Assembly: GCA_903882875.1 (NCBI GenBank)
Contig: CAIRYQ010000009.1
Coordinates: 1 to 63,587, forward strand
Direction of reading: 5' to 3'
Origin: an uncultured Spartobacteria bacterium
GTDB taxonomy: Bacteria; Verrucomicrobiota; Verrucomicrobiia; Chthoniobacterales; Chthoniobacteraceae
DNA: 63,587 nucleotides
Part shown: positions 11,648-25,338 of the stretch, in pieces
Layout of the letters: each line of letters starts with the position of its first letter
Numbering within the stretch: the stretch's first letter is position 1
Position numbers and translations under genes: made by a program
Notes under the pieces: model-generated
Told to the model about the DNA's origin: nothing
The model's input: only the letters and a program-made list of their open reading frames with translations
Databases searched by the model: none

Positions 11648-11706
11648 CGGAAACCGGATACTGGAAAGGGAGGGACGGTCGGCGGCGGGATTCTATCCGG
11701 TTTCCG
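11648..11706. repeat. 13-bp inverted repeat with CCGG core
   Basis: CGGAAACCGGATA (11648-11660) is exactly complementary in reverse to TATCCGGTTTCCG (11694-11706), with a 33-base loop. A further partial copy (ATCCGGTTTC) follows at 11716-11725. It lies in the gap between the Dabb gene and the 21-bp array. It could form a hairpin or mark a mobile repeat. The rest of 11461-11802 shows no gene. Confidence 0.6.
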
Positions 11707-11802
11707 GTTTCCGAAATCCGGTTTCAAACTTCGGCTCCACGGCTCAATTCCGCGCTGGGGCACACGGTGCGGCTTTCGCGATCTCCCATTCCAGAGGGCA
11801 TC

Positions 11803-12096
11803 TGGAGGTTTCCGGGCCTCAAATGGAGCCTTCCGGTTGGGAACTGGAGCGTTCCGGTTCAGACTTGGAGGGCTCCGGTTGCGAACTGGAGGGCTCCAGC
11901 TCAGACTTGGAGGGCTCCGGTTGGGAACTGGAGGGCTCCAGTTCAGACTTGGAGGGCTCCGGTTGTGAACTGGAGGGCTCCAGTTCGGACTTGGAGGGCT
12001 CCGGTTGCGAACTGGAGGGCTCCAGTTCGGACTTGGAGGGCTCCGGTTGTGAACTGGAGGGCTCCAGTTGGGAACCGGAGGGCTCCGGTTCAGAGC
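11803..12096. repeat. 21-bp tandem repeat array 1 (about 14 units)
   Basis: There are fourteen consecutive 21-base units without spacers. Units share TGGAGGGCTCC followed by GGTT or AGTT and then GGGAAC, GYGAAC or CAGACT. From about 11866 to 12054 two subtypes alternate, giving a 42-bp higher-order period. The first two or three units and the last are more diverged, as expected for decaying array edges. Because 21 is a multiple of three and few stops occur, several frames stay open on both strands and give heptad peptides (for example GSGCELE/GSSSDLE). I read the tract as DNA repeat, not as a gene. Confidence 0.85.
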
Positions 12097-12180
12097 CGGA
12101 ATGGGCCGTTTTCCGCGAAAACGGCTCATTTTGAGCAAAAAACGACTTTCAGCAGCAAACCCTCGAACCGAACGACCACC
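12097..12180. repeat. boundary element of array 1, with hairpin
   Basis: The array ends in a segment containing a perfect 9-bp hairpin, GCCGTTTTC-CGC-GAAAACGGC (12105-12125), then CATTTTGAGC, CGACTTTCAGCAGC and AAACCCTC. A related segment (cgtttttgtggcgaaaac, then ttttcgctgaaaccctc) sits at 24508-24546 beside the second array. It immediately precedes the start codon at 12181, so it may also be that gene's leader. Confidence 0.6.
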
Positions 12181-13392
12181 ATGCCTTACGACTTCATCCC
12201 GGATTCGCACGCGAACCGGCCCGCCTTTTTCACGAACTTGAAGCGGCAGTTCGCCACCAGCGCCGCCGCCCTCTGCCTCGTGCTCACCGCCGGCCTCGTC
12301 CGAAGTCATGCACAGGACACTCCTTCCGCCGCCGCCGCAGTGTCTGAAATGCAGAAGTGGATCGCCACGACGGATGAGCAGTGGCAGGCGGTGTTCAAGC
12401 GCGATGTGACCGATGTGCATCTCACGGAACTCGAAAAGCTGAAGCAGCAATATGTGGCTGCGCTCGAAGCAGCCGTCACCAAGGCCAGCAGCGCGGGGGA
12501 TCTCGACGGCGCGGTCGCATTGCGCAACGAGGAGAAGCGGTTCGCCGGGACGAACCTGCTCCCGGAGCAGGACGAGGCCACCGATGCCGCGACCGTGAAG
12601 CAGATCCGCGCGGCAGTGCGTGCGCAGATTGCGAAACTGGAAAAGGACACCGCAGCGCGCACGAAGGCGCTGCACGCGAAGTATGATGCCTATCTCGCCG
12701 ATGCACAGTCCCGCCTCACGAAGGCGCAGCACCTCGAAGATGCGCTGTTGGTGAAGGCCAAGCGCGATGAAGTCTCCGCCGCGTGGCTTACGCCTGGTAT
12801 TGCAGCCACCGCTGAGAAGCCAGTGCCGCCCGCGGTGAAAAGCACGCCGGTGCCAGTCAAGGCTCCTGCCAAAGTTCCTGTCGTCGCTGTCGCACCTGCC
12901 AAACCTGGAGTCCCGGAAATCGAACACGGCTCCAATTGGGACGCCATGCTTCAGAATCCCGCCAGTGTGGAAGTGGCGGATATGCAGGCGCAGCCTTTGA
13001 CCCAAGGCGAGGGCAAGGATGCGTGGACCGAGGTTCCCCAGAAGCTGCTGGCCAGCAAGGCGTCAATCTTCATGCCGTCCGGCAAGAGAATAAACTTCGC
13101 AGATTTCACCGTCACAGCAGATGGCTGGCTGCTCATCGCAGTCAACTACAGTTACCAGGGCAACAAAGGAGGCGGCTGGGAGGAGGGGCGGTGGCTGGGT
13201 AACGATTTCAAGGCCAAGGGCTGGCATCTGTTCAGCAAGCATGAGTTGGGTGGCGTTCTCGTCAAAGGCGAAAGCAAAGGCGAAGGCAAAGCCCAGGAGA
13301 TATACGGAAAGAAGGTCCAGAAAGGCTACCACGAGCGCATTCACTGCAATAAATACGACCCGCCGTATCTCATCCTGCTCGGCGGGAAGTAG
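12181..13392 (+). CDS. secreted coiled-coil protein, unrecognised
   Basis: This 403-residue protein has a long N-region, then a signal-peptide core (SAAALCLVLTAGLVRSHAQ, cleavage near residue 45). A TTG at 12238 would give a more typical signal start. Residues about 50-200 form charged coiled coil (LEKLKQQYVAALEAAVTKASSAGD), with an 'AGDLDGAVALRNEEKRF' pattern I associate with secreted verrucomicrobial proteins. A Pro/Ala/Val linker (about 205-240) leads to a C-terminal domain with FMPSGKRINFADFTVTADGW and many glycines and tryptophans. No family name is offered. It lies directly behind the first 21-bp array. Confidence 0.65.
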   Translation: MPYDFIPDSHANRPAFFTNLKRQFATSAAALCLVLTAGLVRSHAQDTPSAAAAVSEMQKWIATTDEQWQAVFKRDVTDVHLTELEKLKQQYVAALEAAVTKASSAGDLDGAVALRNEEKRFAGTNLLPEQDEATDAATVKQIRAAVRAQIAKLEKDTAARTKALHAKYDAYLADAQSRLTKAQHLEDALLVKAKRDEVSAAWLTPGIAATAEKPVPPAVKSTPVPVKAPAKVPVVAVAPAKPGVPEIEHGSNWDAMLQNPASVEVADMQAQPLTQGEGKDAWTEVPQKLLASKASIFMPSGKRINFADFTVTADGWLLIAVNYSYQGNKGGGWEEGRWLGNDFKAKGWHLFSKHELGGVLVKGESKGEGKAQEIYGKKVQKGYHERIHCNKYDPPYLILLGGK

Positions 13393-13572: not shown

Positions 13573-13908
13573 ATGCCGACGACCTTCGATGAAATCCGCG
13601 ACGCGGTGCTTCACATGCCAAAAGGCGATCAGGTGCGGATTCTCTCGGCTGTCGCACTGGACGTGGCGGATGCGCATCCGGGGATTGATTTTCAGGAGAA
13701 CGTCTGCGGCGGTTCGGCGCGCATCATCCGCACCCGCATCCCCGTGTGGCTGCTCGAATCGCTGCGGCGTGGCGGCAGGACGGATGCGGAGCTGCTGGCA
13801 GCGTATCCTTCCCTCAACGCCGAGGATCTCGCAAACGCGTGGAACTATGCGCGAACCCACCGCGAGGAAATGGATCGTGAGATTGCCGCCAACGGCGACG
13901 ACTCATGA
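13573..13908 (+). CDS. DUF433 family antitoxin-like protein
   Basis: This is a 111-residue protein whose middle (VCGGSARIIRTRIPVWLLESLRRGG, then TDAELLAAYPSLNAEDLANAWNYARTH) is the DUF433 winged-helix-like module. Such proteins pair with PIN-like toxins and are thought to bind DNA and neutralise them. Its end overlaps the next start (ATGA, 13905-13908), which supports translational coupling. The N-terminus resembles a short domain about residues 1-35 of unknown role. Confidence 0.8.
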   Translation: MPTTFDEIRDAVLHMPKGDQVRILSAVALDVADAHPGIDFQENVCGGSARIIRTRIPVWLLESLRRGGRTDAELLAAYPSLNAEDLANAWNYARTHREEMDREIAANGDDS

Positions 13909-14246
13909 TCGCACGGCTCTATTCCAACGAAAACTTCCCGCTGCCGGTGGTGGAGGCGCTTCGTGAGAAGGGTCACGACGTCCTGACCACGAGTGACGCG
14001 GGCAGGTCGAACACAGGCATCTCGGATGATGAGGTGCTCAGGTTTGCCATCGAGAACCAGCGCGCGGTCATCACGCACAACCGGCAGGACTTCATCCGCC
14101 TCCATCGCACGATCCCCGATCACGAGGGCATCATCGTTTGCACGGAGAACGCGGACTTTTCCGCGCTTGCAGAAAAAGTTCACGCGCAACTGCAGCAGAC
14201 CGAATCCCTCAAGGGGCAGCTCTTGCGGGTCAATCGGGGAGCTTGA
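13905..14246 (+). CDS. DUF5615 PIN-like toxin-type protein
   Basis: This 113-residue protein begins MIARLYSNENFPLPVVEALREKGHDVLTT, the DUF5615/Mut7-C-like PIN fold start with an early Asn/Glu pair. It continues with a SDDEVLRFAIENQRAVITHNRQDF motif that carries conserved acidic and Asn/Asp residues of the active site. It is predicted to act as a ribonuclease toxin when unrestrained. Direct overlap with a DUF433 gene is the known arrangement for this module. Activity has not been shown for most members. Confidence 0.78.
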   Translation: MIARLYSNENFPLPVVEALREKGHDVLTTSDAGRSNTGISDDEVLRFAIENQRAVITHNRQDFIRLHRTIPDHEGIIVCTENADFSALAEKVHAQLQQTESLKGQLLRVNRGA

Positions 14247-24445: not shown

Positions 24446-24464
24446 CGCGCTGCGTGAGCGGGAG

Positions 24465-24556
24465 TGGCCTCCGTTTGGAAATGGGTGGCCTCCGCATGGA
24501 AAATGGTCGTTTTTGTGGCGAAAACACCGATTTTCGCTGAAACCCTCCCTTTTTGT
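24465..24556. repeat. two 21-bp units plus boundary element of array 2
   Basis: Two 21-base units (TGGCCTCCG...GGAAATGGG at 24465-24485 and TGGCCTCCG...GGAAAATGG at 24486-24506) lead into a boundary segment, CGTTTTTGTGGCGAAAAC, then TTTTCGCTGAAACCCTC (24508-24546). The same order, G-rich 21-mers then this kind of boundary, is found at 12076-12166. Confidence 0.6.
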
Positions 24557-24955
24557 GCGGCATCTTTAATTAAAAACGTCGCATCCCTAATTAAGTCTGT
24601 CGCATCTTCAGTTAAGTGTGTGACGTTTTTAGTTAAATCCGTCGCATCTCTAATTGAAAACGTGGCATCCCTAATTAAAGACGTGACGTCTTCAACCAGG
24701 TCTGTCGCATCTTTAATTAGGTCCGTGACGAAGTGGGTTAAGTCCGTGACGTTTTTAATCAAGTCTGTCGCATCCTTGGTTAAGGATGGGGCATCTCTCA
24801 TTAAATCCGTGACGCCCTTGATTAAATCCACCGCATCGTCAACCAAGTCCGTGGCGTCTTTGGTTGGGGCCGTCGCATCGTTCATGAAATCTGCGACGGA
24901 ATGGGCTAAATCCCTCGCGGAGCGTATGAAGTCCGCCACGCAAGCGGTGAGGGGC
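24557..24955. repeat. 21-bp tandem repeat array 2 (about 19 units)
   Basis: There are nineteen contiguous 21-base units that typically read GTCGCATC-YTTAATTAAG-TCC. They are more AT-rich and more diverged than array 1, with identity falling toward the right end. The period keeps frames open on both strands: on the plus strand the heptad is like SLIKSVA, on the minus strand like DLIKDAT. The minus-strand reading starts with an ATG at 24960 and would give a roughly 135-residue heptad-repeat, coiled-coil-like peptide, so translation cannot be fully excluded. I favour a DNA repeat. Confidence 0.8.
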
Positions 24956-25017
24956 ATCATGGAAAGGGGGATGTCTGCGCCAGACTGGCCCGCCTCCGGA
25001 GCGGAGAGGGGGCTTCT

Positions 25018-25338
25018 GTGATGGAAGCCACTTCTTTCGTCGTGGATTTGGTTGCCTCAGGGCCAAAGGCAACAGCCTCCATGCCTTCCTTTCTGGAGTT
25101 CAGGCCCGGCTACGGACCGTATGAGGGAAACAGTCCCGGCTATCCTGCTTCCCACGGCTGCGTCCGCCTGTCGTCGCGGATGGCGAAGCAGTTTTACAAT
25201 GCCAGTCAGATTGGAACGTCCGCTACGTCCCCTCTCCTTGTTTTCATTGCGGCGTTGGACTCACCGGCGGGGCGGCACTTATTAGCGTATTTTGGATGCG
25301 GGCGTTCCTGCCAAGAGAGCGGCCTTTATTTGCGGTAG
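25018..25338 (+). pseudogene. L,D-transpeptidase (YkuD) C-terminal remnant
   Basis: An open frame of 106 codons contains GYGPYEGNSPGYPASHGCVRLSS and then MAKQFYNASQIGTSATSPL, which is the catalytic HGCVRLS motif of YkuD-type L,D-transpeptidases and the family C-terminus. The N-terminal half of the domain and any signal peptide are missing: upstream is repeat array 2. It is therefore likely a remnant of a gene cut by repeat insertion or deletion. The last 40 residues are not family-like. Confidence 0.65.

Follow-up and report, generated by a model that had tools for sequence, protein, structure and literature searches.

Arrays of 21-bp tandem repeats with a recurrent edge element stand upstream of an Fn3-domain gene family in two bacterial phyla

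Introduction

Iterons are tandem, helically phased sites of common sequence, recognized by a single Rep protein. REP and BIME elements occur as many intergenic palindromic copies per genome, and these also share a sequence. At phase-variable promoters, tandem repeats lie upstream of members of multi-copy gene families. PARCEL elements (PMC2996958) are protein-coding tandem repeats of 25 residues (75 nt); they show dyad symmetry and occur in scattered, unrelated microbes.

The arrays described in this study consist of 21-bp units and share features with each of these systems. Like PARCEL elements, they are tandem, dyad-symmetric, and scattered over unrelated microbes, but their period is 21 and 70 of 72 lack codon-phase bias, so we do not class them as PARCEL elements. 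They have the helical phasing and internal symmetry of iterons and operators (period 21, with a significant dyad in 44 of 75 arrays), but each locus has a unit sequence unlike the others. They are like REP and BIME in having many intergenic palindromic copies, and differ in sharing period and position instead of sequence. As with phase-variable promoter repeats, they stand upstream of multi-copy family members, and a whole-unit difference was seen once; however, they differ in being built of 21-bp units that keep one period in two phyla. They are not CRISPR arrays, as their units are contiguous head to tail.

Results and Discussion

Two array loci in the window

The window, i.e. the whole 63,587-nucleotide stretch of DNA that was analyzed, contains two loci with 21-bp arrays, with the following features:

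11700-12260, plus strand: stretch common to the window and G000:C117, covering the array, the element, and the start of the gene; 11830-12176 match at 88%
11832-12090, no strand: array 1, about 12 dyad-symmetric tandem 21-mers (TRF period 21/42, with a 42-bp higher order)
12095-12143, plus strand: boundary element copy 1, matched by profile R1 at E = 2.7e-9 (training copy)
12181-13392, plus strand: gene after array 1, with about 51 N-terminal residues resembling the type B protein described below and the rest not
24464-24505, plus strand: two G-rich 21-mers to the left of the second element (repeat family D2, 81% alike)
24495-24544, plus strand: boundary element copy 2, matched by R1 at E = 4.9e-9 (training copy)
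24560-24960, no strand: array 2, about 19 AT-rich 21-mers (GCATCTTTAATTAAA...) from tandem-repeat analysis, fading near 24960

A preliminary description of this DNA had G-rich 21-mers running into a shared segment at both loci, with a gene following at array 1 and AT-rich 21-mers at array 2. We found this layout as described: the 21-mers occupy 11832-12090 at the first locus and begin at 24464 at the second, the segment after array 1 spans about 12095-12166 and ends at an ORF with its ATG at 12181, and the AT-rich units begin at 24560. One half of the segment, CGTTTT...GCGAAAAC, is aligned in both copies. The other half, AAACCCTC, is out of register, being shifted downstream by about 17 bp in copy 1, and its homology is doubtful because of that offset. 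The alignment of 12076-12166 with 24465-24550 scores above shuffled sequence, its score being reached by 2/2000 and 0/2000 dinucleotide-shuffled pairs under two scoring schemes; the same test on the element alone gave 7/2000 and 2/2000. Copy 1 also contains a 14-bp inverted repeat at 12100-12130.

Both arrays are dyad-symmetric (array 1, z = 4.0, P = 0.002; array 2, z = 3.2, P = 0.005). Codon-phase bias is absent from array 1 (P = 0.53) and weak in array 2 (P = 0.036). Over the ranges aligned, array 1 and its C117 copy differ by exactly one 21-bp unit. The type B-like start of the following gene is based on 54% identity between window positions 12184-12336 and the type B gene on C117, and the gene has no Pfam family at E ≤ 0.01.

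Recurrence of the boundary element

We built profile R1 from sequence alone, using four copies of the element: the two in the window, the one on C117, where array 1 recurs together with its flanks, and a fourth on C18. Over the 5.78-Mb genome, R1 returned 26 rows at E ≤ 10, and 15 of these were new places. Most are weak alone, with four at E < 0.01 and the others up to 1.7. Fourteen of the 15 adjoin a 21- or 42-bp tandem array, defined as an identity of at least 0.6 in a 63-bp window within 400 bp, and the fifteenth reaches 0.56. By the same definition, arrays adjoin 36 of 1,500 random genome points (2.4%), and at control lags of 17-20 and 22-25 the identity at the R1 places is at most 0.54. 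A column-shuffled R1, with its gap-free columns reordered and built and searched alike, had zero matches in the genome. The earlier suggestion of a repeated modular element, possibly undescribed, thus gained support: the element recurs next to arrays, and no description of it or of the arrays was found in the open-access literature searched, including passages of PMC4210602, PMC4060949, and PMC2996958.

R1 found only its training copies in 461 kb made up of the window and sampled stretches, so many arrays are without an element that is visible to this profile. Among the loci fetched from relatives, the best R1 matches were array-adjacent in four of five from the same genus and in none of 24 from the other genera of the family. 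By sequence, the boundary element is mainly a genus-level feature. In 63 loci of other genomes, R1 matched three places, all at array edges. Where present, the element occupies one array edge or lies between two arrays (window 24464-24960, L068, and L079).

Plain DNA similarity was also tried across 197 genomes of the order. It gave matches of 21-31 bp to the element in four other genomes, and none of those loci had a 21-bp array.

Predicted curvature of the element and array edges

The element copies have a common pattern, GGAAAA-n-GGCCG-TTTTT-n-GCG, repeated, in which A- and T-runs alternate every 10-11 bp (about 10.5). Because of this alternation, the element amounts to about two diverged 21-mers. 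It looks like the edge of the array itself, not like something foreign to the arrays.

The copies tested are predicted to be strongly curved. We applied a wedge model to 14 of them, namely L172 and 13 of the 19 places known in this genome, and the predicted bend was 51-109 degrees over 53 bp, against 21.5 ± 11.6 for random genome windows; copies 1 and 2 in the window reached 98.8 and 76.8 degrees over 53 bp. Each tested copy was predicted to be more curved than its own shuffles (P ≤ 0.04), a result that is partly built in, since most copies were picked by a profile that contains A/T runs. The Verrucomicrobiota loci described below were instead found by gene similarity. We took 38 of the 42 arrays there, leaving out near copies, and predicted curvature exceeded shuffles at P < 0.05 on the distal array flank in 17, on the proximal flank in five, and inside the gene in one. 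The side of the curved edge is not fixed, because in this genus most elements flank the array toward the gene and the excess of predicted curvature is distal elsewhere. For whole arrays, predicted curvature did not exceed that obtained after column permutation (median P = 0.52 over 68 arrays), and the predicted curvature therefore belongs to the edges.

The 21-bp arrays

Period 21 predominates. A scan of 461 kb returned 11 runs at lag 21, four of them known beforehand, and no more than three at each of the other lags between 8 and 41. Six arrays lie in 319.5 kb of contigs that had come from chance short matches and were not chosen for arrays; these data suggest something like 100 arrays genome-wide, with a wide error.

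The consensus units are unlike between loci. The palindromic tendency reached P < 0.05 in 44 of the 75 arrays tested and P < 0.01 in 32, and the remaining 31 have no significant dyad. There is no general coding signature: codon-phase bias appeared at P < 0.05 in two of 72 arrays, one of which was array 2 of the window, and the median P was 0.60. In the 52 arrays that had six or more units and a dyad of 12 or more columns, double changes were compensatory on the dyad in 183 of 2,265 cases, compared with 1,555 of 19,900 off the dyad. As this is no excess, base pairing is not what is kept. The dyad, codon-phase, compensation, and whole-array curvature tests were run with the near copies L207, L209, L212, L217, L149, L151, L152, and L153 left out.

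Five orthologous arrays on five MAG contigs aligned over 444 columns without a gap and had the same copy number. Within them, the GGTA/TACC arms vary in 16 of 96 columns vs. 53 of 148 for the centers and spacers (P = 0.0013). For copy number, we thus have one paralogous pair that is one unit apart and five orthologues that are identical.

Arrays also occur beside other genes, including a sulfatase (L065 and L077) and a BD-FAE-type esterase (L066 and L072).

A gene family downstream of the arrays

After masking the arrays, we compared the ORFs of 43 array loci and found recurrent ORFs of two kinds, type A in eight loci and type B in five, both with an Fn3-like end. This genome has type A in nine places and type B in six, the window match to type B being the N-terminal 51 residues only. 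An array lies within a kilobase upstream of 14 of these 15 places and downstream of none; the fifteenth place has 258 bp of contig upstream, and one place has only 32 bp downstream.

Scanning genome contigs with type B yielded 114 relatives, of which 80 were kept. They are mostly from Verrucomicrobiota MAGs, with others from MAGs titled Methylococcaceae/Methylococcales, Gallionella, Thiodictyon, and Nitrosomonadales, and one from Lentisphaerae. The seed genes had been met through arrays, and the other homologues were found by protein similarity alone. For the upstream count, 14 of 77 tabled loci were dropped for having less than 400 bp upstream (L225-L227, with partial genes, were not tabled). 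A lag-21/-42 array stood upstream of 51 of the remaining 63 homologues, some of which are close relatives. By phylum, the counts were 42 of 49 in Verrucomicrobiota, 0 of 1 in Lentisphaerae, and 9 of 13 in Proteobacteria, where a single short unit, 490-585 bp upstream, recurs in four of the nine arrays and leaves five independent strong ones. At control lags, upstream arrays numbered one (20|40), two (22|44), zero (24|48), and zero (18|36) among the 63, and arrays were found downstream of 4 of 61 homologues. Thus, the arrays stand upstream of a gene family with a helical part and an Fn3 domain in two phyla.

The arrays sit a median of 169 bp upstream of the matched start. A promoter scan of 16 loci returned Sigma70-like sites in the interval from array to gene at two of them, L222 (P = 0.01) and L214 (0/200 shuffles). 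This signal is weak, with two of 16 loci at P ≤ 0.01, none convincing in Verrucomicrobiota, and the other 14 uninformative.

Two loci upstream of a type B gene, L220 and L205, have arrays of period 40 and 41, not 21/42. Near other type B genes (L135, L141, L143, L144, and L147), 8-bp tandem repeats such as (GGAGCGTC)n are present besides the 21-bp arrays.

The type B protein begins with a W-rich, in-frame N-terminal stretch; a helical part comes next, and the C-terminal domain is of the Fn3 type. Two or more W occur in the stretch at 33 of the 51 loci that have arrays. The Fn3 fold was recognized in a predicted structure (AF2 pLDDT 91.6), in which residues 138-231 aligned to Fn3 structures with a VIA-align Z of 10.8 and an rmsd of 2.3-2.4 over 86 aligned positions. 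Foldseek alone gave no match at E ≤ 0.001, structure search matches were confined to the Fn3 part, and one type A relative matched Pfam fn3 (E = 1.6e-5). The representative type B protein had no Pfam, PHROGs, or PADLOC family at E ≤ 0.01, its alignment had no PDB sequence match at E ≤ 0.1, and NCBIfam returned nothing convincing for other family members. Library matches of the type A protein were weak (PHROG tail fibre, E = 0.0031; PADLOC Csm6, E = 0.0089). The family is like other Fn3-domain proteins in its C-terminal domain and differs in its W-rich tail and helical N-terminal part, a combination for which we found no described family in the libraries searched.

Just before the type B gene, the W-rich tails take forms such as MNWDxGxWDSGxWDQP or MALWSxGxLWxSGxLWGP (L148-L224).

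Interpretation of the arrays

In the interpretation that we favor, with a probability of roughly 45%, the arrays are regulatory platforms at the DNA level, each one a tandem set of palindromic, putative protein-binding sites with a predicted curved edge, upstream of a gene. An array would offer 4 to about 30 palindromic sites to a two-fold symmetric DNA-binding protein, and one site per 21 bp, or two helical turns, would place all of them on the same face. The predicted curved edge, which carries phased A/T runs and either terminates an array or separates two unlike ones, may aid loading or looping. Binding could then set or switch expression of the gene downstream, often a member of the W-rich/helical/Fn3 family. 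Each locus would have its own unit sequence, homogenized via gain and loss of whole 21-bp units. We favor this platform because of the two-turn spacing, the two-fold symmetry, the constrained arms, the lack of base-pair compensation, and the upstream position. One protein could not be sequence-specific for all arrays, since unit sequences differ between loci. We count against the platform the 31 of 75 arrays without a significant dyad, the weak promoter signal, the lack of excess predicted curvature in whole arrays, the variable side of the edge, and the arrays beside other genes.

The main rival is neutral: slippage may build non-adaptive satellite DNA with a 21-bp unit at permissive intergenic sites, and the palindromes and gene association would be by-products. 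Units that are unlike at each locus, the one-unit difference between array 1 and its C117 copy, and the arrays beside unrelated genes all agree with this. It is nonetheless unlikely in our judgment, given arrays upstream of 51 of 63 homologues in two phyla but downstream of only 4 of 61, the rarity of other periods, arms that vary less than spacers, and a copy number that is the same in five MAGs over 444 gap-free columns. The segment can be re-used: in the window, array 1, the element, and a type B gene start precede a different protein. This observation, together with the many dispersed copies and a patchy presence in two phyla, would suit a recombination or mobility module, in which array and element move promoter modules between genes. 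At E ≤ 1e-5, neither phage nor plasmid records contain a match to the type B protein, and viral contigs gave no confirmed one; we regard such a module as rather improbable.

If the arrays were instead transcribed as a structured RNA leader, each unit would be a small hairpin. The dyad symmetry seen in 44 of 75 arrays would fit such hairpins, and a median of 169 bp upstream of the matched start is where a leader could be. RNA hairpins are ruled against by the absent excess of compensatory change; moreover, 31 of 75 arrays have no significant dyad, the window has no Rfam match at gathering score, and two loci have promoter-like sites downstream of the array and ahead of the gene. A leader is improbable on these grounds. 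Very improbable indeed is the proposal that the arrays encode heptad repeats, 21 bp being seven codons. Frames are open over both window arrays, array 2 reads as VASLIKS-like heptads with a codon-phase P of 0.036, and one search match, L020, looked like a true coding repeat. As a general explanation, however, coding is rejected by the codon-phase test, in which two of the 72 arrays reached P < 0.05 and the median P was 0.60, and by the frame test, in which the gene's frame was open across the whole array in 15 of 51 loci, and the array translations match on both strands.

Extended beyond single loci, the regulatory-platform interpretation would define a class of cis-acting DNA elements in which helical period and position are conserved and sequence is not. 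It is possible, at somewhat less than even odds, that each Fn3-family gene copy in the two phyla has a private palindromic 21-bp array with an intrinsically bent edge, which would serve its own locus as a platform for regulation or heritable switching. If so, an element defined by its period would be missed by similarity-based annotation. The arrays also mark a multi-copy gene family that has no convincing library name and is common to Verrucomicrobiota and Proteobacteria MAGs, and they offer a direct handle on what binds them and on what the genes of this family do.

Additional observations in the window

On the plus strand at 13573-14246, a DUF433 gene (Pfam E = 1.3e-16) precedes a DUF5615 gene (E = 1.9e-26), and the pair resembles a toxin-antitoxin module. 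After array 2, at 25018-25338 on the plus strand, a short ORF with an SHGCVRL motif appears by eye to be a fragment of a putative L,D-transpeptidase.
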